Shown here: piece after piece, positions 21,580 through 64,000 of the stretch
Numbering within the stretch: the stretch's first letter is position 1
Layout: each line of letters starts with the position of its first letter
Virus record (IMG/VR): IMGVR_UViG_3300033233_000009
Span: 1 to 64,000 of that record
Reading direction: 5' to 3' (one strand)
Source: a virus
DNA: 64,000 bases
Notes under the pieces: model-generated
What the model was told of the DNA's origin: nothing
The model's database searches: none
What the model saw: the letters and a program-made list of their open reading frames with translations, nothing else
Translations under genes and position numbers: made by a program

Positions 21580-22155
21580 ATGACCGACGCCGAAGCGGAA
21601 CGCATGGTCGAGGAACTACGGGAGTCCGTCGAGACGACGCTGCGCGCGTTGCTCGTGCGGGCGCCGCGGACGACTCCGGCCTGCGTGGGGATCGTCGCGC
21701 GCGACGGCGTCGCCGCGCAGGTGAAGGCGACGAGCGCGGCGGGGTACGCCGCGGTCCCGATGCCGGCTGCCGAGGACCCGGGGCGACCGCTCTACGACGC
21801 GGTCGGTGCGGCACTGCGGCGACCGAGGACCGCGGATCAGGAGTGGATCGTGCTCGTGCACCACGACACGGCCGGCGTGCGCGTCGCGGTGCTCACGTTT
21901 GCGTTCGCGACCAAGGTGCGCCGGAGCCTCGCCGAGGTGCTCCCGGAGCCGCGTGCGGAGGACGAACGGCGCGCGGAGGAGCTGGGCAGCGCGCTGTTCA
22001 TGCCGGACCAGCAACTCGGCTCGGTGGGCGAGTGCGTGGAGCAGGTGGACGGCGCCATGCGCGCGTTCGCCGACATGGTCGCCGAGGGGCGCGCCCTGGG
22101 AGTCGCGCTGACGACGTACGGGCGCGGGATGATCAACTGGCGATTATGCACTTAA
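21580..22155 (+). pseudogene. 5' half of transposon-split gene
   Basis: Reads 191 codons from ATG 21580, the last six lying inside the transposon end. Native coding stops at the target duplication (22131-22138). Joining 21580-22138 to 26114-27144 restores one 530-codon frame with no stop, so this is the N-terminal part of an originally 529-residue protein. Residues 1-180 include VKATSAAGYAAVPMPA and EWIVLVHHDTAGVRVAVLTFAF. The start is 6 nt after a -10 box. Family not recognised. Confidence 0.85.
22131..22138 (+). repeat. Target-site duplication, left copy
   Basis: GATCAACT directly precedes the transposon and is repeated at 26106-26113. Eight bp is the usual duplication size for the IS1595 family. 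Confidence 0.95.
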
Positions 22156-22159
22156 CAAA
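22139..22159 (+). repeat. Left terminal inverted repeat
   Basis: 21 bp, complementary to 26085-26105 at 20 positions; the single difference lies in ACTTAAC versus ACTTGAC. Confidence 0.93.
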
Positions 22160-22204
22160 TAGGCGACTTTGCAGCCGCGACGGAAATTCCGGCCCCCGCC
22201 AGCC

Positions 22205-22381
22205 CTACTTGCTCCGGTCGCCCTCGGGCTGACTGGCGCTCGCCGAGCGCTTCTTAGGCACCTTCTCACCACCCTTTGGTGGGACCGCCAAAGCCCGCCC
22301 CATCATGGCGTCGAAGTTCGACGAGTCCAAGTGGATGTCAGGCTCTCTCGCCTTCGATGCTGCCTTCGACTTCGGATTCAT
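22205..22381 (-). CDS. Small antitoxin of RelE/ParE-type toxin
   Basis: 58 residues from ATG at 22381, which overlaps the toxin stop as ATGA. The product has a basic start (MNPKSKAASKAREP), then LDSSNFDAMMGRALAVPPKG, the short phenylalanine/VPPK element typical of small antitoxins that wrap RelE-like toxins. Here the toxin gene precedes the antitoxin, the reverse of the most common order. Confidence 0.75.
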   Translation of the reverse strand: MNPKSKAASKAREPDIHLDSSNFDAMMGRALAVPPKGGEKVPKKRSASASQPEGDRSK

Positions 22382-22656
22382 TTATACACGTCCTTTCTGT
22401 CGTCTATGTCGAGCACTATCACCTCGGTTGGTTTCTCTCGGACCACGTACAGGATGCGGTAGTCACCCGACCGTTCCCGGTAGATCGGTTCACCGGTCGC
22501 AGCGGTTTCACCGCACAGTTTTTTCGATCCGGGAGGGTGGGGGTCATGTTGCAGCGCCCTTGCCTTTCGTGTGACCTGTCTACGGAGTTTGTGCTGTTGG
22601 ATATTTGTCAGGTATTTCAGCGCCACCCTGGTGAACGCGAATCCGATAAGTGCCAT
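22378..22656 (-). CDS. RelE/ParE-superfamily toxin
   Basis: 92 residues. It has the small RelE/ParE fold: ALKYLTNIQQHKLRRQVTRKARAL, then KLCGETAATGEPIYRERSGDYRILYVVREKPTEVIVLDIDDRKDVY. The YRER.GDYRILY and V(L)DIDDRKDVY segments are family hallmarks; such toxins cleave ribosome-bound mRNA (RelE) or inhibit gyrase (ParE). The strand order favours RelE. Located 9 bp after the R-M gene, it may punish loss of the cassette. Confidence 0.85.
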   Translation of the reverse strand: MALIGFAFTRVALKYLTNIQQHKLRRQVTRKARALQHDPHPPGSKKLCGETAATGEPIYRERSGDYRILYVVREKPTEVIVLDIDDRKDVYK

Positions 22657-22665
22657 CCGCGTTAC

Positions 22666-25086
22666 CTACAATTCCAACCGATTCAGCTCTTGTTCTAGTT
22701 CCTTTCCTCGCACGAGCTGGTCCTGGTCGCGCCCTATCTCGACGAGGCGCGTTCGCGCAACGCTAACATCATCCGCCTCTTCTGCGTTCGACAAAGCTAG
22801 GCGTTTTATTTGCTCGGCGTTTTCTATCGACAATCGCACCCGGCCCAGTAGTGCAGCGTTGGTTGGAAGTCGGAAGCGAGCGATACGGGAGGGGGTCACC
22901 TTCCGGCCGTAATTGAACCGCCAGCGCTCCATACGAGCTATGGCCGCTGCCACGTAGAGCAACGCCGGATCTGCTCCCTTCTTAGAGACCAGGATGAGCG
23001 CATCGTCGGCCACGCCGCATGGCCATTCTTGAACATGGGCTTCCCCGATGCTCCCGGTGCTGGGGACAGTAACAAACGGGGGCACTAGCAAGGCTTCAAA
23101 GTCGAAGAAGCCGTAACAACCATTGTCCGTACCGCTGGACGAAACGACCGGCACAAGTCCTGGGGCGAGCATACTCTTGTCATGCAGGGCTTTCGTTCCG
23201 TAACCGATATGGAAATAAGCCCCAATAGTGTCCGAAGCGTCGTCAAGCGCGCGGCTCCTCTTGGGGGCTGTTGGGATCAGTTCTTTGCGGGCGACAGCTC
23301 TTTCTAAGCGGCACAACTCGTGGGCATGTAAGGCGGCGAACGCTCCCTGACTCCGAGCTAGCCCTGCAACTTCTTCCTCGATCTGTGCCTCGGTGAAAAT
23401 CTCTGCTGGGATGTATGCGCCCGGTTCCCAGCCATCGTCATGCACAACAGTAGCCCACCCACAGTACCCCGGGATGACATCGTGATTGCGGTACGCTGCG
23501 AGTGTTTGCGTTAGTTGCTCCCCTGTCCTTGGCACACGCATGTTCTTCTTTCGCTTGAGTCCGTCGTTCTCGATTCGCGCGAAAAACACCTTCTTACCTG
23601 CCGGATGCGGCGTACCCTTCGTAAGAACTAGGATCGCCGGATACACCGATGCGTATGGTTGAAATAATTGGTCGGGCAGCTTGATTACGGCGGTGAGCGT
23701 ATGGTGTTTGAGGATGCCCTCGCGCCATGCCTGCTTCTGCTTCTTCACGGCGAGAGACCTAGGCACGATCATCGCGAGCGTGCCGCCGTGTTTGAGGCCC
23801 TCAAGAGCGCGCTCGACGAACCTCTCGGGCGGCGTGTCCGTTTTCTTATGAGGGAATGGCGGGTTCATCAGAACGACGTTGGCCTTGCCGACCGGGTAGT
23901 CCCCGGCCGTGAAGCAGTCGTCCTTGCGAATGCCCGTCGAACCGTCACCGCGCAAGATCATATTCGCGACGCACAGCGCGGCGGTCACCGGCTCTTGGTC
24001 GAACCCGATGAGGTTCTTCTTCACCATCGCGACCATCTGCACGCGCGAGAGTTTGTGCTCACGCACGACGCGATTCATGGAAGCGATGAGGAACCCTCCA
24101 GTGCCGCACGCAGGATCGAGAACTACGTCGTTCAGGCTGATATTCGTCAGGTCGGTCATAAACGCGGCGATGTGACGCGGCGTGAAATACTGACCGATGG
24201 TGTTCCCTCCTGTGTAATGGAAGAACGTCTCGTAGAGCTGGCCGAGGTAGTCGTGCTCGGCGGTGAGCACGGTTACGTTGAGGCGCTCCAAGATCGTCGT
24301 GATCCGACGCGCCTTGACGGCGAGCACGTCGTTCGCCTCGTCTACCCGTAGGCTCGCGGCGAGATCAGGCTTCCTCGCCTTCCAGAACGCCTTGCGGCAC
24401 GCCTCGTTTATGTCGCCGAGGATGTTCTCGGCGTCTCTGCGAATCGCGCCCTTCGACTGCCATAACGCCAACATTGTAGCGCCCACCACAGCGGGCCGCG
24501 CGGCGTCCGTAATCCCGGCTTCGCGAAGCAGACGGTTGATCTCGTCCGCCCGATCCGCGAGCACCTCGACGGGTGGGATCGACGGGCGCATTTCGGCGGT
24601 CGTGTTGGGCGCAAGAAGACGCTCCACGTCTTCGCGGTTTGGCATCCACGTAATCGGATTGCCGTCGTAGGTGACCGGAACCCACTTCTTGCCGTTCCAC
24701 TTGAATGCACGAACGGCGAAGTCGTCCTCAGACGTGCCCGCAACAGCGATGGCAATAGGAGTAGCGCCCGCATCGACCATCGCCATCCCGTAATCGCGGG
24801 TGACTTCCTTCTCGGCCAGCGCGAGACCAGCAAGCGTACCTTTGGCCTCGATCACCACAAGCGGTTGCAACGCGCGGTCAACGAGGATGGCTTCCGGTAG
24901 CCCTGCGCCCCCACCGCCAGACTTGCTCCGACCCTTGAAAATGTCGAGTAGGTGCGTGTGATCCTTGTACTCGTGTTGACGGAGCATCGCGCCGTTCGGC
25001 GGGCGGCGTGTGTCCCAACCTTGCGCTGCGAGTAGCTCCGTCAGGAGTACCTCTGTACGGACTTCAGCGACGCGCATGGGGCTCAT
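22666..25086 (-). CDS. Fused nuclease-methyltransferase-specificity R-M enzyme
   Basis: 806 residues. The N-terminal domain has a PD-(D/E)xK pattern: Asp70 and E80-x-K82 in LVVIEAKG. The centre is an N6-adenine methyltransferase of the HsdM type: GQYFTPRHIAAFM, DPACGTGGF (324-332), NPPF (408-411). The C-terminal 270 residues resemble a target-recognition region (IGYGTKAL, VVSSSGTDNGCYGFFD, RFRLPTNAALLGRV). One chain could modify and cut DNA, as in type IIG systems. ATG overlaps the transposase stop. Confidence 0.85.
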   Translation of the reverse strand: MSPMRVAEVRTEVLLTELLAAQGWDTRRPPNGAMLRQHEYKDHTHLLDIFKGRSKSGGGGAGLPEAILVDRALQPLVVIEAKGTLAGLALAEKEVTRDYGMAMVDAGATPIAIAVAGTSEDDFAVRAFKWNGKKWVPVTYDGNPITWMPNREDVERLLAPNTTAEMRPSIPPVEVLADRADEINRLLREAGITDAARPAVVGATMLALWQSKGAIRRDAENILGDINEACRKAFWKARKPDLAASLRVDEANDVLAVKARRITTILERLNVTVLTAEHDYLGQLYETFFHYTGGNTIGQYFTPRHIAAFMTDLTNISLNDVVLDPACGTGGFLIASMNRVVREHKLSRVQMVAMVKKNLIGFDQEPVTAALCVANMILRGDGSTGIRKDDCFTAGDYPVGKANVVLMNPPFPHKKTDTPPERFVERALEGLKHGGTLAMIVPRSLAVKKQKQAWREGILKHHTLTAVIKLPDQLFQPYASVYPAILVLTKGTPHPAGKKVFFARIENDGLKRKKNMRVPRTGEQLTQTLAAYRNHDVIPGYCGWATVVHDDGWEPGAYIPAEIFTEAQIEEEVAGLARSQGAFAALHAHELCRLERAVARKELIPTAPKRSRALDDASDTIGAYFHIGYGTKALHDKSMLAPGLVPVVSSSGTDNGCYGFFDFEALLVPPFVTVPSTGSIGEAHVQEWPCGVADDALILVSKKGADPALLYVAAAIARMERWRFNYGRKVTPSRIARFRLPTNAALLGRVRLSIENAEQIKRLALSNAEEADDVSVARTRLVEIGRDQDQLVRGKELEQELNRLEL

Positions 25087-26057
25087 TCCCCGCCCGCCTT
25101 CGGCGGCTTGAGCATGAGCCGCTTGCCTTCGATGAGTCGGATCGCTTCCACCGACCGTTCCCCGTCCGTGACCTTGCGGGTGTTGTACTTGAAGTCCAAC
25201 TCCGCGAAGTAGAGATCCGTGTGCTCGCGGCTGATGTTGTGGTGAGTCCCGTCGATGCTCCGCTTCGAGTTTCCGAAGAAGCCCTCCACTGTGTTCGTCG
25301 TCGCCTTGCGTCCTGTAGCCGCATCGTCCCGAGCGTACTCTTCCCGGCTGTGGTTCACCGTGTCATGGGACGCGAAGTCCTGGCCTACAGCCTTGTAGAC
25401 CGATGACTCGTCCGTGTTGAGGCGCGCGGTGCGAGCGATCTGCCTTCGGAGGAGCTTGCCCATCTCGTCTCCGTTGACCATCGTGGCGACCTGGGATCGG
25501 ACTCGGCCGCCGCGCTCGACGAGAGACACCACCGGAGTCTTGTTGCCGACGTAGCCGCGTCCCTTGCGCCGCACCTTGCCGCCCATGTACGTCTCGTCAG
25601 CTTCTACGGTCCCGTCGAGTTGGTCGTCTGGAAACGAATCCTTGAGGGCGTACCGGATGCGGTGACACATGAACAGAGCAGAGCGGTAGGAGCCAAGCTC
25701 AAGCTGGCGCTGAAGTTGGAGCGCTGACACCTGGGTCTTGGAGGCGCACATCATGTAGAAGGCGATCAGCCACTTGTTGAGCGGAATGTGAGAATCCTCA
25801 CAGACAGTGCCAACCGTGACCGTGAATTGCTGGGCGCAGGCGGCGCAGCGATACAGCCCTGCTCGAATCTTGGCTTTGGGGTTCGCGGTGATCTTGCTGA
25901 TGCACGCCTGATCGATGTTGCCGCAGTGGGGGCAGGACGGACCGTTCGGCCACCGGACCGACTCCATGTAGGCGCGAGCTGCCGCCTCAGTGGAAAACCG
26001 CTGACAGACGGAAATCAGTGTCAGGTCGCGGCCTTCCGGGTCCCAGTTCGTCGTCAT
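25083..26057 (-). CDS. IS1595-family (ISXO2-like) DDE transposase
   Basis: 324 residues. An N-terminal zinc ribbon (CPHC at 42-45, CAAC at 71-74) is followed by the DDE-type catalytic core: Asp154 in VEADETYMGG, Asp216 in LNTDESSVY and Glu258 in NTVEGFFGNSKR. The C-terminus has HTDLYFAELDFKYNTR. All catalytic residues are present. First gene of the element's leftward operon. Confidence 0.95.
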   Translation of the reverse strand: MTTNWDPEGRDLTLISVCQRFSTEAAARAYMESVRWPNGPSCPHCGNIDQACISKITANPKAKIRAGLYRCAACAQQFTVTVGTVCEDSHIPLNKWLIAFYMMCASKTQVSALQLQRQLELGSYRSALFMCHRIRYALKDSFPDDQLDGTVEADETYMGGKVRRKGRGYVGNKTPVVSLVERGGRVRSQVATMVNGDEMGKLLRRQIARTARLNTDESSVYKAVGQDFASHDTVNHSREEYARDDAATGRKATTNTVEGFFGNSKRSIDGTHHNISREHTDLYFAELDFKYNTRKVTDGERSVEAIRLIEGKRLMLKPPKAGGE

Positions 26058-27990: not shown

Positions 27991-28532
27991 GCGCAACGCT
28001 ACCATTCCCTTCAGCCGCGCCGCCGCCGTTCACCGTCGGCCGGTTCTTCGGTCCACAAACCACGATCGACAAGATGCGGGAGCTGTGTCTCGGCGCGCGG
28101 GGTGAGCGGTCGATCGTGCTCTACCAGCTCACCGAGCACGTGGTGCGCTGGCTGCAACCCAAGGACTACCTCTCCGAGATTCTCGCGGTCCGCAACTTCG
28201 TCGCCGAGAAGGTCCGCTACAAGAACGACCCGCTCGCGATGGAGACGATCTCCGACCCGCAGCGGCTCGCGGAGCAGATTCTCCAGTACGGCCAGGCGAC
28301 AGCCGACTGTGACGACATCGCGCTTTTGGTCGCCACGATGGCGCGGCAGCTCGGGCGCGAAGCGGAGTTCGTCACCGTAGGCTTCGGCGCGCCCAACAAC
28401 TTCAGCCACGTGTTCGCGCGCGTGAAGGAGCCGAAGTCCGCCCGCTGGCTAGTGACCGACAGCGTTGCGGGGACAAGAGAAGCCGCGATGCTCGCGCGTG
28501 TCACGACCTGGAAGTCTTGGAAAATCGACTGA
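27987..28532 (+). CDS. Transglutaminase-like cysteine protein
   Basis: 181 residues. The catalytic triad of the transglutaminase-like superfamily is visible: Cys108 in TADCDDIALLVATM, His141 in NNFSHVFARV, Asp158 in RWLVTDSV. Such proteins cleave or cross-link peptides; in phage particles they may mature capsid or wall-entry proteins. It is the first gene after the HNH, overlapping it by 4 bp. No membrane segment. Confidence 0.82.
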   Translation: MSATLPFPSAAPPPFTVGRFFGPQTTIDKMRELCLGARGERSIVLYQLTEHVVRWLQPKDYLSEILAVRNFVAEKVRYKNDPLAMETISDPQRLAEQILQYGQATADCDDIALLVATMARQLGREAEFVTVGFGAPNNFSHVFARVKEPKSARWLVTDSVAGTREAAMLARVTTWKSWKID

Positions 28533-30132: not shown

Positions 30133-30669
30133 ATGACGAACGGACTCGGCGAATACTTCGGACCGCAGATGCAGCAGGCCGCTGCTGGCTCGCCCGCGCT
30201 CGACCCGTATCCGACGCGCACTTCCGTCCGGCAGCGGCCCGAGGCGCTGCCACCGACGAACGGGACCGGCGAGTACTTCGCGCAGAACGGCATGGGCGCG
30301 TTCGGCCCCGGCGTGATGGGAGGCATGGGCGCCTACAACATGGGCCCTGTCGGGCCGCGGCCGCGTGGCGCGTTCCGCAAGGTCGCGAGCAAGGTGTCGC
30401 CGCTCGCGGGCGCGCTCGGGGACGCTTCCGACGTGATCAGCGACGCGAAGGCGGGCGTCGTGACCGGCGTGGCCGCTGCCACGACGCTGACGGCGCTGCT
30501 GCTCGGGATGGGACTCCGGTTCGGTGCGGGCTGGATCGTCGGCAAGGCGCTCGCGCCGAGCCGTGCCGAGGAGCGCGCCTACACCTGGGGCGGCGCCATC
30601 GCGAGCGTGGTCTTCGGAAGCGTGGGGCTCGGCGTCGAGGCACTCGTCGCCCAGAACATGAAGAAGTGA
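30133..30669 (+). CDS. Membrane protein with LGEYF motifs
   Basis: 178 residues. It starts MTNGLGEYFGPQMQ and repeats the motif as TGEYFAQNGMGAF near residue 45. Two hydrophobic regions follow (GVVTGVAAATTLTALLLGMG and GGAIASVVFGSVGLGVEALV). It shares LGEYF with the products at 45861, 53956 and 57327. The gap to the previous gene is 2 bp. Confidence 0.78.
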   Translation: MTNGLGEYFGPQMQQAAAGSPALDPYPTRTSVRQRPEALPPTNGTGEYFAQNGMGAFGPGVMGGMGAYNMGPVGPRPRGAFRKVASKVSPLAGALGDASDVISDAKAGVVTGVAAATTLTALLLGMGLRFGAGWIVGKALAPSRAEERAYTWGGAIASVVFGSVGLGVEALVAQNMKK

Positions 30670-45782: not shown

Positions 45783-45860
45783 CACCATCGACCCGTAGGA
45801 GCCAGCCGTACTTTCGAGGCCGCTGGGCACACCGCGCTAAGCGCGGAGGTATGCCCGAAG

Positions 45861-47891
45861 ATGGCCAGAACAATCGGCAAGGCGTTCAAGATCGGCAAGA
45901 AGGACGTGAAGTCCTACGGCTACGCCACGCCGAACCGCCGCGCGGGTGGCCGCATGACGGCGAACGCCGGGGTGACGGCCATCGCGGCCATCAACGGCCC
46001 CGGGGCACACGCTCGGCACCACCGGGGCGTGAGCGCGCGGGCGGCCATGAACGGTCTGTCGCGCGAGGAGCGCCTCGCGCGGGCTCGCAAGATCACCGGC
46101 GCTGACCGGGCGGCGTTCGCGCGCCGCATGGGTGCCGCCACGAAAACCAGAGGAACAACCATGCGAACGAACGCCAGTCCAGCGCAGATCGCGGCCGCAC
46201 GCCGCAACATCAAGAAGGCCATCGCTGCCCGTCGGGCAGGCGGTCATCGCCCGAACCTGCGTCCGATGCGGTTCGGTCGCCCGCTGGGCCGGCCCGGGCT
46301 GCGTCCGAACACCTGGCCCGGCGAGGTCCGTCGGCACGAGCACGCCGCGGCGCGCGGCTGGGCTCTGCGTACCGGGTCCCGTCCGCCGTTCGCCTCGACG
46401 CTGGGCACGGCGGCCAGGCGACGGAAGAAGAAGAAGCACACGGCCAACAGCCGGAGGAAGAAGACCATGAGAACCCATCGCCGGAACTTCAGCGCGAAGC
46501 AGCGGGCTGCCGCGCTCCGCAACCTCCGCAAGGCACGTGCCGCGCGGAAGCACCGCCCGAACGCCCGGAAGACGCGGAGCCGCCGGAAGGCGCACCGCCG
46601 CAACGGGCTGGTGTCGAACAAGCGGCGCGTCGCGCGGCGCAGGAGCCACCGCAAGAACTTCAGCGCGAAGCAGCGGGCCGCCGCGCTCCGCAACCTGCGC
46701 AAGGCGCGCGCGGCGCGGAAGCACCGCCCGAACGCCAAGCGGCGTACGGCTCGCCGGAGCCACCGTCGCAACGGCCTGGTCTCGAACAAGCGGCGCACGC
46801 ACCGCCGGAACTTCAGCGCGAAGCAGCGGGCTGCCGCGCTCCGCAACCTCCGCAAGGCACGTGCCGCGCGGAAGCACCGCCCGAACCGGAAGCACCGCCG
46901 GAACACGCACCGCAAGGCGCACCGCCGGAGCCACCGCCGCAACGGCCTGGTCTCGAACGGAGCATTCCGTCGCAACCAGTTCCTCGCGACGGCCAAGGCG
47001 GTCCTCAAGATCGGCGCGATCACCACGGCGGGCTTCGTGGCGCACAAGGCCGTCACCAAGGTCTTCACCGACCAGATCCTCGACCGCATCCTCGGGTCGA
47101 GCGGCGCGGCCTCCCCGGCCAAGCCGGCGGCGGCGAGCGGGCTCGAAGCGCTCCAGCCCTACCGGAGCATCATCGGCGGCGCCGCAGTCGCGGCGGCCGG
47201 CGTGTTCCTGGCCAACAAGGTGGTCAAGGACACGCAGACCAAGATGTTCCTCACGGCCGGCATCGCGACCTCGCTCGTTCACTCGATCGCGGTCGTCGCG
47301 CTGGCGAAGCTCGCTCCGTCGTACTCCGGCTACCTGTCCGGCGACGGAACGGCAGCCAACATCTCGGCCATGTACGGCTTCGGTGCGGGCGCGAGCATCA
47401 TGCCCGAGTACCACCCGATCAACGGCCTGGGCGAGTACTTCGCGCAGAACGGCCTGGGCGAGTACTTCGCGCAGAACGGCCTGGGCGAGTACTTCGCGCA
47501 GAACGGCCTGGGCGCGTACACGAGCAACCCCGACCTGATGCAGGCGGCGGCGGGCTACGGCGTGGTCGAGAACCAGAACAGCAACATCGTGGACCCCGGT
47601 GGTGACCTCGACGCGCAGCTTTCGATCGCGGAAGCGGCGGCGGGCGTCGGCGCGGTGCCCTACGAGGCGGCAGCCGGCTTCGGCCGGGTGCAGCCGTTCG
47701 AGGCGAGCGCGGGCTACGGCGGCTTCGGTGCGGTGAGCACCGTGCCGCCCACGGCCGACACCTGGATCCCCGGCTCGTCGCACGGCCAGCTCTGGGCAGG
47801 CACCCGCGACATCACCGCGGGCCAGTCGGCCCACGAGATGGTGAGCGCCGGGATCATGGAGACCGGCGGCAACCAGGGGGTCTTCGGCTGA
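45861..47891 (+). CDS. Histone-like repeat protein fused to membrane and LGEYF repeats
   Basis: 676 residues. Residues 1-370 are extremely rich in Arg/Lys/His/Ala; FSAKQRAAALRNLRKARAA units occur three times between basic linkers (KTRSRRKAHRRNGLVSNKR). This resembles histone H1 or protamine and should condense DNA. Residues about 375-490 contain hydrophobic helices. Then GLGEYFAQN is repeated three times (520-547), followed by a Gly/Ala-rich tail. It may link packaged DNA to a membrane or shell. Confidence 0.82.
   Translation: MARTIGKAFKIGKKDVKSYGYATPNRRAGGRMTANAGVTAIAAINGPGAHARHHRGVSARAAMNGLSREERLARARKITGADRAAFARRMGAATKTRGTTMRTNASPAQIAAARRNIKKAIAARRAGGHRPNLRPMRFGRPLGRPGLRPNTWPGEVRRHEHAAARGWALRTGSRPPFASTLGTAARRRKKKKHTANSRRKKTMRTHRRNFSAKQRAAALRNLRKARAARKHRPNARKTRSRRKAHRRNGLVSNKRRVARRRSHRKNFSAKQRAAALRNLRKARAARKHRPNAKRRTARRSHRRNGLVSNKRRTHRRNFSAKQRAAALRNLRKARAARKHRPNRKHRRNTHRKAHRRSHRRNGLVSNGAFRRNQFLATAKAVLKIGAITTAGFVAHKAVTKVFTDQILDRILGSSGAASPAKPAAASGLEALQPYRSIIGGAAVAAAGVFLANKVVKDTQTKMFLTAGIATSLVHSIAVVALAKLAPSYSGYLSGDGTAANISAMYGFGAGASIMPEYHPINGLGEYFAQNGLGEYFAQNGLGEYFAQNGLGAYTSNPDLMQAAAGYGVVENQNSNIVDPGGDLDAQLSIAEAAAGVGAVPYEAAAGFGRVQPFEASAGYGGFGAVSTVPPTADTWIPGSSHGQLWAGTRDITAGQSAHEMVSAGIMETGGNQGVFG
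46479..46886 (+). repeat. Three 84-bp direct repeats encoding basic units
   Basis: Copies at 46479-46562, 46650-46733 and 46803-46886. The first and third appear identical, including silent positions; the second differs at several bases. The pattern indicates recent duplication or gene conversion. Confidence 0.85.
47421..47504 (+). repeat. 27-bp tandem repeat encoding NGLGEYFAQ
   Basis: Three perfect 27-bp units start at 47421, 47448 and 47475, followed by the start of a fourth at 47502 that diverges to GLGAYTSNP. Perfect identity suggests copy number could vary. Confidence 0.92.
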
Positions 47892-53955: not shown

Positions 53956-54360
53956 ATGTCGCTCAATCAGATGGCGTACCAGTCCGGCGTGCTCGGGGCC
54001 CTGCCCCCGGCTCCCGCCTTCCGCTCGGGCTCGCTCGGCGTGCTCGGCTTCGTGCCGCCGGTGTCCGGTGCGGTGCGCTCGGGCTCGCTCGGCATCCTGG
54101 GGGCGCCCCCACCGAGCGGCGCCGTGAAGTCCGGCGTGCTCGGCACGCTCGGTGGCGGCCCGCCTCCCTCCGGTGCGGTGCGCTCCGGCTCGCTCGGTGT
54201 ACTCGGCGAGTACTTCGCGCAGAACGGCCTCGGTGCCGATGCGGTCGTGATGCCCACCGCGGTGGGGCCGAAGCCCGCCATGGCGACCCTCACCATGGCC
54301 ATCGCTGGCCTGGGCGCGGTCGCCGCGATCTGGTGGGCCATGACCCGCCGGCACGCCTGA
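53956..54360 (+). CDS. Membrane protein with SGSLGVLG and LGEYFAQNG repeats
   Basis: 134 residues. SGAVRSGSLGVLG-type units occur about four to five times (residues 10-82), separated by Pro-rich turns. One LGEYFAQNGLGAD follows, then a transmembrane segment (ATLTMAIAGLGAVAAIWWAM) and TRRHA. The repeat joins this protein to the 30133, 45861 and 57327 products. Confidence 0.8.
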   Translation: MSLNQMAYQSGVLGALPPAPAFRSGSLGVLGFVPPVSGAVRSGSLGILGAPPPSGAVKSGVLGTLGGGPPPSGAVRSGSLGVLGEYFAQNGLGADAVVMPTAVGPKPAMATLTMAIAGLGAVAAIWWAMTRRHA

Positions 54361-54456: not shown

Positions 54457-55077
54457 ATGGCGGACCTGCTCGAAACCCTCGGCCGCGTCGTCCTGACCTT
54501 CCAGTCCGCTCCGCAGGGCGTGCCGGGCAGGATCTGGGACGAGCTGCGTCCGTGGTTCGGGCGGCTCGTGGTGAGCGCGGCGCCGAAGTGGCTACCGCGC
54601 CTGTCGTTCGGCTTCGCGTGCTCGGTGCCGCATCCGAACGGCGCGGCCTGTCCGCGGCCCGCCATCGCGGCCTGCGATGTGTGCGGCCAGCCCTGCTGCC
54701 TCGACCACGCGCGCATCGACCAGTACGGCGACGCGATCTGCTACCTCTGCTGCATCGAGGCGATCCGGCGGAAGCAGGCCGAGCGCGCCGGGGAGCCAGC
54801 GCCGGGGCACGGTCACGCCCAGGGGGGCCATGCCGGGCACGGGCATGGGCCGCAGCCGACCCCTGAAAAGGAGCTGGCCTGGGCCCGCAAGACGCTCGGC
54901 GTGAAGAAGGGCGCGGACTGGGAAGAAGTGCGCGCGGCGCACCGTAGACTCTCCGCGAAGTGGCACCCCGATCGCCATCAGGGCGCGGGCTACCAGGCAG
55001 CCGAGGACCGGTTCAAGCAGGTACAGAGAGCGTTCGACTTGCTCACGAAGGAACGTGAGCGAAAGGAAGCGGCGTGA
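54457..55077 (+). CDS. DnaJ-type J-domain protein with Cys cluster
   Basis: 206 residues. The C-terminal J domain (about 138-203) has HPD at 170-172 and QRAFDLLTKE, so it can stimulate an Hsp70 (DnaK) ATPase. Residues 55-99 hold nine cysteines and an HxxC-type pattern (CDVCGQPCCLDHA, CYLCC) resembling a B-box or zinc finger. A His/Gly linker (GHGHAQGGHAGHGHG) joins them. The J domain is C-terminal, the reverse of classical DnaJ. It may recruit the host chaperone to virion assembly. Confidence 0.85.
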   Translation: MADLLETLGRVVLTFQSAPQGVPGRIWDELRPWFGRLVVSAAPKWLPRLSFGFACSVPHPNGAACPRPAIAACDVCGQPCCLDHARIDQYGDAICYLCCIEAIRRKQAERAGEPAPGHGHAQGGHAGHGHGPQPTPEKELAWARKTLGVKKGADWEEVRAAHRRLSAKWHPDRHQGAGYQAAEDRFKQVQRAFDLLTKERERKEAA

Positions 55078-57326: not shown

Positions 57327-58490
57327 ATGGACTACTACCGCGTCGGCTACGCACAGTCCCCGCTCGTTCCCATGGGGATGGGCTCCTCGCCCGACGGCCT
57401 CGGCGCGTACTTCCAGACGACGTACCAGCAGCCGATCCGCGCGGTGCACGGCGGCACGAGCACGGTGGCGGCCTACCAGCCGATCGATGGGCTCGGCGCG
57501 TACTTCGCGACGACGTACCAGCAGCCGATCCGTCCGGCGCAAGGCGGCGCGAGCATCATCGCGGACTACAAGCCGATCGACGGGCTCGGGGAGCTGACGC
57601 CCGCCCAGCGCAGCGCAGTCGCCTGGGCCTCGCTCCTCGGCTTCGTCGGGTGGGGCAGCGGGCTCCTGGCGCGGGGCCCCGTCTACGCCCGCAAGCGCGG
57701 CCCGTGGGTACCGCTGGCCGGCGCGGCGGCCGGCGTGGCGGTGGGCTACGCGATCGGCACGCGGCGGGCTACCGCCCCGCCTGCGCCCACGGCTGGCCTT
57801 GGCGCGTGCCTCCCGTGCATGGCAGCGGCCGCGGGCCTCGGTGCGGATGCGGTGCCGGCGGCGACGCCCTCCGCACTCAGCAAGCCATGGGTCAAGGTCG
57901 CGCTCGGTGTCGGCGCCGTCACGCTCGCCTGGTACACCGTGCCGGCGTTCCGCAAGCTGTGGGGTCCCGGTGGCGCGCTCGCGAAGAACAAGCGGCACCG
58001 GCGGAACGCGCACACGGGCGGACCCGACGATCACGTTTACGCGCCAAGCGGGATGCGTGGCTGGGATGCCTGCGCGAGGTGCGGTTACGCCCGCGGACAG
58101 CACCTCACTGCTGCCGAGCTAAAGCGACTCCGCTCGCTCACGCCGAACCGCCGCCGCAGGCACCGGAAGAACGCGAAGTGGTCGGGCAAGGCGAAGCGGA
58201 GCCTGCCGGACACCAGCTTCCTCTACGTTGCGCCCGGCGGCCACGCGCGCATCGAGGGCGGCAAGAAGGTCACCATCCCGCGGAGCCTGCGGAAGTTCCC
58301 GTACCGCACGGCGGCGGGCAACATCGACCTGCCGCACCTGCGGAACGCCATCGCGCGCATCCCGCAGTCGAACCTGCCGGAGAGCCAGCGCACGCTGCTC
58401 CAGGCGAAGGCCCGCGCCATCCTCGCCGAGCACGGCGGGTACAAGCGCGCGCGCAAGGCGGCGGGCGGCGTGCTCCGACAGGCGGCGTGA
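57327..58490 (+). CDS. Multidomain membrane protein with GLGAYF repeats
   Basis: 387 residues from leaderless ATG. Two DGLGAYF(Q/A)TTYQQPIR units (24-72) and a third DGLGEL precede two hydrophobic regions (about 95-140 and 190-210). Basic linkers (NKRHRRNAHTGG, TPNRRRRHRKNAKW) flank a small Cys module (CARCGYARG). Residues about 295-375 (SFLYVAPGG, RSLRKFPYRTAAGNIDLPHLR, NAIARIPQS) match a C-terminal domain seen in phage prohead-protease-associated proteins. Confidence 0.8.
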   Translation: MDYYRVGYAQSPLVPMGMGSSPDGLGAYFQTTYQQPIRAVHGGTSTVAAYQPIDGLGAYFATTYQQPIRPAQGGASIIADYKPIDGLGELTPAQRSAVAWASLLGFVGWGSGLLARGPVYARKRGPWVPLAGAAAGVAVGYAIGTRRATAPPAPTAGLGACLPCMAAAAGLGADAVPAATPSALSKPWVKVALGVGAVTLAWYTVPAFRKLWGPGGALAKNKRHRRNAHTGGPDDHVYAPSGMRGWDACARCGYARGQHLTAAELKRLRSLTPNRRRRHRKNAKWSGKAKRSLPDTSFLYVAPGGHARIEGGKKVTIPRSLRKFPYRTAAGNIDLPHLRNAIARIPQSNLPESQRTLLQAKARAILAEHGGYKRARKAAGGVLRQAA

Positions 58491-63112: not shown

Positions 63113-64000
63113 AACGTCGAACGTCCCAAGCATTGGTCGGTATCTGGACTGGATTCGCACGGCCGCCCGTGGAGGGGGCCGCTCTGGTGCGGCGAGAGCT
63201 GGAGAAGGCGCACGACTACTACAACCAGATCGTGCAGTTGGAGCTGGACAGGCGGACCCTGTACCGCGCTGCGCGCGGGACGGTCGGGGAGACCCTCACC
63301 GCCCTCCAGGCGGAGATGGACGCGCTGAACGAGAAGATCACGGCGGAGGTCGGCGGCCTGCGCGCAGTGCGCCAGGCGGCGCGGACGCGCGTCGAGGATC
63401 CCGCGGCGAGTGCCAGGATCAAGGCGGTGAAGGAGGAGCGGCGGGCGCTCGCCGAGCGGCTCAAGGCGGCGCGCGCGGAGGCCGAGAAGGTCTACGGGCC
63501 GGGCAACGAGGAGCTGAGCCAGCGGAGCGCCCGTCTGGCGGAGGGGAACACGGCGTCGCGCATCCGGGAGAAGACGAACCGCGCGGCGCTGGAGGAAATG
63601 CTCACGGAGCCGGAGTGGGCTGACGAGTGGAAGATGGTCGCGCGGATCAATCACGACGCGAACGAGGTGAAGAAGCAGATCCGGGCCGCCTGTGGCCTCA
63701 CCCCCGGCACGTACCTGCTGGTCGAGAAAGCGGTCGAGGCTGCGTTCGCGCCGCCGCCGAAGGGGCGGCCGCCGCGGCCCGACCCGCGCCCGAAGGAGCG
63801 GTTCATCGGCGAGGGGCGCCTCGGTGTGCAGGTGCACCGGCTGCCGGTGGCAGACCTGCTGGCGGGTCGCAACGGGCAGATCGCCCTGCGCATGAGCGAC
63901 CGGCTCCCGAACGGAGCGAAGGCGGCGCAGCGGTACGGCACGCTGCGCATGCGGGTCACCACCGACGGTCAGTACGCCGAGTTCCCGGTGAAGCTCCACC
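63109..64000 (+). CDS. TnpB/Cas12-like protein, N-terminal part
   Basis: 297 residues, open at the window edge. The N-terminus (VEGAALVRRELEKAHDYYNQIVQLELDRRTLY), a long charged helical region (50-180), then RAACGLTPGTYLLVEKAVEAA and FIGEGRLGVQVHR...VADLLAGRNGQIAL resemble phage-encoded TnpB-like proteins often annotated as transposases or miniature Cas12. The RuvC catalytic residues and zinc finger would lie beyond 64000 and cannot be checked. RNA-guided DNA binding or cutting is therefore inferred. Confidence 0.55.
   Translation, partial: MKRRTSQALVGIWTGFARPPVEGAALVRRELEKAHDYYNQIVQLELDRRTLYRAARGTVGETLTALQAEMDALNEKITAEVGGLRAVRQAARTRVEDPAASARIKAVKEERRALAERLKAARAEAEKVYGPGNEELSQRSARLAEGNTASRIREKTNRAALEEMLTEPEWADEWKMVARINHDANEVKKQIRAACGLTPGTYLLVEKAVEAAFAPPPKGRPPRPDPRPKERFIGEGRLGVQVHRLPVADLLAGRNGQIALRMSDRLPNGAKAAQRYGTLRMRVTTDGQYAEFPVKLH

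Follow-up and report, generated by a model that had tools for sequence, protein, structure and literature searches.

A group of large bacterial viruses, apparently undescribed, encodes a highly basic, GLGxYF-tagged protein with hydrophobic segments beside candidate capsid genes

The window analysed here covers the leading 64 kb of an IMG/VR virus record (124,597 bp), and contains a gene for a 676-aa protein (Table 1) whose start codon, an ATG, lies 11 nt past a GGAGG sequence (45845–45849). Residues 1–370 carry a net charge of +114 with 6 acidic residues, and comprise a moderately basic N-terminal core (residues 1–95; K+R 22%, net +17) and a strongly basic region (residues 96–370; K+R 36%). 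The hydrophobic part of the protein (residues 371–490) is formed by three segments, which appear as three peaks at around residues 392, 446 and 474 when the hydropathy is averaged over the family. The C-terminal domain (residues 491–676) is acidic, with only 2 K/R, and displays GLGEYFAQNG repeats at its start. With a whole-protein net charge of +107, it ranks highest of all 187 proteins predicted in the record, the runner-up reaching +37. Charge, hydropathy and repeats thus bear out the original observation that a single polypeptide combines about 370 residues of basic sequence, hydrophobic segments and an LGEYFAQNG tag.

Table 1. Features of the 676-aa protein gene and of related or neighbouring genes (window coordinates).
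Feature	Position	Strand	Remarks
Tagged membrane protein without basic region (GLGEYF, GTGEYFAQNG)	30133..30669	+	weak match to tag and membrane module of the 676-aa protein
Gene of the 676-aa basic, membrane and tagged protein	45861..47891	+	conserved in 27/27 loci
N-terminal core, conserved, residues 1–95	45861..46145	+	MAR.IGKAF.I...NAGVTAIAAINGPGA...SAR.AMNGLS (alignment); dN/dS 0.19
Strongly basic, fast-changing region, residues 96–370	46146..46970	+	net +97, 2 acidic residues
Repeat copy 1 (HRRNFSAKQRAAALRNLRKARAARKHRPN)	46473..46562	+	46479–46562 identical to copy 3
Repeat copy 2	46644..46733	+	7 differences over 84 nt
Repeat copy 3	46797..46886	+	46803–46886 identical to copy 1
Hydrophobic segment 1, residues ~383–402	47007..47066	+	family-mean hydropathy peak ~392
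Hydrophobic segment 2, residues ~437–456	47169..47228	+	family-mean hydropathy peak 446
Hydrophobic segment 3, residues ~465–484	47253..47312	+	family-mean hydropathy peak 474
Acidic C-terminal domain, residues 491–676	47331..47891	+	net -15; conserved end ..TWIPG....LWAG....ETGGNQGVFG
GLGEYFAQNG tag repeats	47421..47519	+	27-bp unit, 3.7 copies, 98% matches
Candidate small major capsid protein, 252 aa	48110..48868	+	in 27/27 loci; 93% identical to G001
Candidate large major capsid protein, 320 aa	49010..49972	+	in 27/27 loci; AlphaFold model, SH1/HHIV-2 best PDB matches
Third conserved predicted virion protein, 292 aa	51397..52275	+	homologues in 21/26 other loci
LGEYFAQNG-bearing membrane protein	53956..54360	+	
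GLGAYF-tagged protein, hydrophobic segments, basic C-terminus	57327..58490	+	net +37

Pfam gave no matches when searched with the entire protein (E up to 1), or with its pieces and the basic regions of its relatives (E up to 10). Because no curated profile matched, membership in the histone, H1, Hc1 or protamine families was rejected. The histone/protamine/H1-like label that had been attached to the protein is valid as a statement on composition and fails as one on homology; judged on sequence, "histone-like" refers to composition only and is to be dropped as a family claim.

Long overlapping frames are found on the opposite strand of the gene, as is usual at 70% GC, and the basic frame could be taken for an untranslated mirror of GC-rich, low-complexity DNA. 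Codon-wise comparison with the orthologue in the G001 record gave dN/dS values of 0.19 for the N-terminal core, 0.24 for the basic region, 0.48 for the membrane region and 0.16 for the C-terminus, with third codon positions changing most. Values between 0.16 and 0.48 in all four domains indicate a frame that is translated and under purifying selection. Considering the ratio of about 0.2 in the basic region itself, the conserved start region and the retention of the frame in 27 loci that range from 59 to 70% GC, such an artefact is scarcely credible, and this reading was discarded as already refuted by codon-wise selection.

The 90-nt unit repeated in the basic region is present in three copies in the window gene and four in the G001 orthologue. 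The identity of two 84-bp repeats, from which a recent expansion had been proposed, is real, but homogenisation or gene conversion explains it equally well. The motif G[LMVF]G[EADN][YF], which defines the tag of the C-terminal domain, was counted 12 times in the record, compared with 0.7 times in shuffled proteins. Tags are more similar within genomes (0.331) than between genomes (0.245), a difference reached in 3 of 2000 shuffles, which is no more than suggestive of a co-variation of the tag within each genome.

The two genes downstream of the 676-aa protein gene encode the most conserved proteins of the block. Neither has a match of weight in Pfam, PHROGs, NCBIfam, PDB sequences or phage records, and a PDB sequence search with both proteins and the C half of the 676-aa protein returned nothing useful. 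Structural models of both were generated with AlphaFold at medium confidence (mean pLDDT 68). A Foldseek search of the PDB with the model of the larger protein retrieved, as the top three matches, chains as long as the large capsid protein VP4 from SH1 and HHIV-2, whose membrane-containing particles have two single-jelly-roll MCPs (E 0.003–0.008, probability 0.80–0.84), followed by the capsid proteins of iridovirus, vaccinia (D13) and PBCV-1. This result is a lead rather than a proof, since no match passes E 0.001. For the smaller protein, the top matches are also jelly-roll capsids, and are loose and not significant. On the basis of these models, the two proteins look like capsid proteins. 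An extra gene of 340 aa separates the two candidates in L016 (11176–12198), and comparable gaps in L038 and L042 suggest insertions.

A query with the 676-aa protein itself retrieved one viral contig (L003, 179 kb), and a query with the neighbouring 252-aa protein yielded 25 IMG/VR viral contigs together with a single MAG contig that bears the label Pseudomonadota. The largest contigs of the group reach 179–182 kb, and two of the loci (L014 and L015) may belong to one virus, as their coordinates and identity values match. A homologue of the 676-aa protein is located upstream of the 252-aa neighbour in 27/27 loci, the window counted. Homologues were detected by profile search, except those in L040 and L043, which were recognised by inspection of the frames (884 and 910 aa, with whole-protein net charges of +128 and +133). 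The gap to the small-capsid candidate is only 127–276 nt in 20 of the 25 tabulated loci, and 0.9–2.1 kb in L027, L039, L041 and L042; the start of the homologue was not parsed in L045. In L040 (5054–5776) and L043 (6931–7668), a short protein lies between the homologue and the small-capsid gene that has an RRNP-hydrophobic start like that of the membrane module of the 676-aa protein and lacks the basic domain, and is possibly a duplicated bare membrane module. A tblastn search of 50,697 phage records gave no match for the 676-aa protein or for either capsid candidate.

The architecture of basic N half, hydrophobic segments and acidic, tagged C-terminus is kept in all 27 loci. Across the 25 tabulated loci, the net charge is +81 to +193 over the N-terminal 60% of the sequence and -7 to -17 over the final 180 residues. 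Both ends are conserved, and the basic stretch changes quickly in sequence and length. The open frames range from 597 to 924 aa, a variation that resides mostly in the repetitive basic region and would be expected of a tape-measure or scaffold, in which this region would run along the gap between capsid and membrane, or rest on anionic lipid, and set the particle size rather than condense DNA. Membrane-proximal proteins are known to organise the capsomers of HCIV-1 and HHIV-2 (PMC6414509). We consider this reading unlikely, as net charges between +81 and +193, with hardly an acidic residue, exceed what a tape would need and suit the binding of a polyanion, and as the basic stretch is contiguous and lies N-terminal to the membrane segments. 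For the contiguous +114 region ahead of the membrane segments, which every member retains, the best explanation is a putative genome-facing polyanion binder.

The gene is part of a block (28–60 kb) in which membrane proteins abound (21/35, against 19/143 elsewhere), several of them sharing the short tag, and which also holds peptidoglycan-active domains. Such a composition suits a membrane-containing bacterial virus. Cationic and hydrophobic parts combined in one protein, with peptidoglycan-active neighbours, might also denote a lytic or antimicrobial-like disruptor whose cationic region perturbs membranes at entry or exit. This is very improbable, given that separate endolysin-type genes are present and that the size of the protein and its universal pairing with capsid genes favour a structural role. 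A basic domain with membrane helices could equally tether a replication site, the protein being in that case a non-structural organiser that fastens replicating viral (or host) DNA to the cell membrane and stays out of the particle. That role is doubtful for a gene placed just before two capsid-like genes, within a block of membrane proteins and endolysins and away from DnaB (12239) and RecT (5506), and encoding a tag common to other proteins of the block.

Several other genes of the window and of related records are of interest in their own right. A transglutaminase-like protein (window 28074–28532, plus strand; PF01841, E 8e-8), with a counterpart in the six records compared (6/6), could be a maturation protease or a cross-linker; cleavage of the tag by this core protein is speculative. 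A J-domain protein with a Cys/His-rich N part (window 54457–55077, plus strand), likewise in 6/6 records, represents a chaperone within the virion block. A VWA/metallopeptidase-like protein (G000 118508–121033, minus strand; L009 14508–17033) contains an intein insertion with a LAGLIDADG domain. Two proteins conserved in 6/6 records (L007 7998–9314 and 10424–11545; G000 71998–73314 and 74424–75545) have the look of glycosyltransferases, and PHROGs assigns glycosyltransferase phrog_2170 to two members, not named, of the set shared by the six records. The window also includes an island of lower GC (22000–26000; 59–62% versus ~70%) with an N6 DNA methylase gene (22666–25086, minus strand). Distantly related proteins are encoded in L014 (16636–18576) and from window position 63187 onward (gene end at record position 65226), and are likely TnpB-like nucleases, based on a Cas12f1-like TNB domain in the former and a CxxC zinc ribbon in the latter.

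Markers of tailed phages were searched in 21 virus records. No match was found in them to the portal (PF04860) or the HK97 capsid (PF05065), and TerL (phrog_2) gave only one weak, partial match, in G014. A tailed-phage structural gene, and with it an assignment to the Caudoviricetes, was rejected for lack of conserved TerL, portal and HK97 MCP in these records. The packaging ATPases FtsK, HerA (DUF87) and A32 (PF01580, PF01935, PF04665) had no conserved match in the 21 virus records either, DUF87 being above the cut-off in G014 alone, although a diverged motor might escape detection and some records may lack part of the genome. In six records covered almost in full, the only P-loop families shared between records are DnaB, a DnaC-like loader, and MoxR-type and ComM/Mg-chelatase-type proteins. 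These absences are provisional, because CheckV gives no completeness for these records. On gene content, the group comprises large viruses of bacteria in which tail genes are not recognisable. No large single-jelly-roll bacterial virus group was found in the open-access literature searched, though one may have been published elsewhere, and the group in which this protein is universal is apparently undescribed.

On this evidence we favour, with a probability of roughly 60%, the reading that the bacterial virus is tailless and contains a membrane, and that the 676-aa protein is its main membrane protein, grown into an anchor for the genome. Because it adjoins likely capsid genes in every member found, the protein probably ties viral DNA to a membrane inside the particle. 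The N half would bind and condense the viral DNA regardless of sequence, the hydrophobic segments would anchor in a lipid layer within the capsid, and the acidic GLGxYF-tagged C half would touch the capsid or other tagged membrane proteins, so that genome, membrane and shell would be joined by a single polypeptide. Two membrane crossings would leave the C half on the DNA side of the membrane, and three would place it on the capsid side. The proposal that a DNA-condensing protein is tethered to a membrane or shell hence stands as the best reading, on the strength of an architecture found in 27/27 loci, the usual presence of capsid-like neighbours and the membrane-rich block, and is to be relieved of its supposed histone, H1 or protamine homology.

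Single-jelly-roll membrane-containing viruses of the kind compared here have genomes of 16–31 kb and a packaging ATPase. If the proposed anchoring role is true, a group several-fold larger would show how such particles scale up, and large eukaryotic viruses with genome-condensing core proteins would have a counterpart among bacterial ones. It is conceivable, though we would not expect it, that tailless membrane-containing viruses of >180 kb, with two single-jelly-roll MCPs, package their genomes without a conventional FtsK/HerA or terminase motor; the anchored protamine-like protein would condense the DNA and draw it to the membrane, and the capsid would assemble on the other end of the protein. 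A gene for a basic protein with membrane segments and a GLGxYF tag, next to two capsid genes, is a clear marker for finding more members, and serves for testing whether condensation instead of a motor can package large dsDNA genomes. Of wider importance is the group itself, in which this type of protein is universal.

Proteins with comparable tasks have been described in other viruses. The adenovirus capsid has no membrane. Adenovirus core protein V is basic and bridges genome and capsid via protein VI (PMC7998265); its likeness to the 676-aa protein is one of function, and homology is indicated by no test made. Ascovirus P64, from a eukaryotic virus, is a large cationic virion protein that condenses a dsDNA genome of 100–200 kb, and database searches found no similar family (PMC6163548). 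In the abstract of that study, condensation is attributed to a basic C-terminal domain and no membrane segments are reported, whereas the basic part of the 676-aa protein is N-terminal; the two are likened by description, not by sequence. Adenovirus V and P64 are functional analogues, not claimed relatives. In tailed moraphages, a histone H1-like protein (PF07432) is proposed to compact the genome during packaging, in phages that have TerL and portal and for which no membrane part of this protein is reported (PMC12619734); the 676-aa protein has no match to PF07432.

A closer parallel in gene organization is offered by the Halopanivirales (Helvetiavirae). P23-77, HHIV-2, SH1 and SNJ1 share the order membrane or structural protein, small MCP and large MCP, the gene that precedes the capsid genes being VP15 in P23-77, VP12 in SH1 and HHIV-2, and VP6 in SNJ1. 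The 676-aa gene fills the equivalent slot, and the two single jelly-roll MCPs side by side in Halopanivirales may have their counterpart in the two neighbouring candidate capsid genes of 27/27 loci. The members compared have genomes of 16.5–30.9 kb and a conserved FtsK/HerA packaging ATPase, whereas contigs of the window's group extend to 179–182 kb and none was found conserved in it. VP12 (SH1, HHIV-2 and HCIV-1) and VP15 (P23-77) have short hydrophobic segments in a layout that by eye is similar to that of the 676-aa protein, but are only 94–138 aa long, with net charges of +2 to +5, and lack the basic domain and the tag. When the membrane region was aligned to VP12 and VP15 with hhalign, VP12 ranked first, with a non-significant score of 19.1 against 18.0 for the best reversed decoy; the capsid candidates against VP7, VP16, VP4 and VP17 also gave nothing significant relative to reversed decoys, and the accepted relatives VP15–VP12 and VP17–VP4 likewise score nothing by this method. 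If the 676-aa protein is the same protein as VP12 and VP15, the group would have extended it by an N half that binds DNA and by a C half with the tag.
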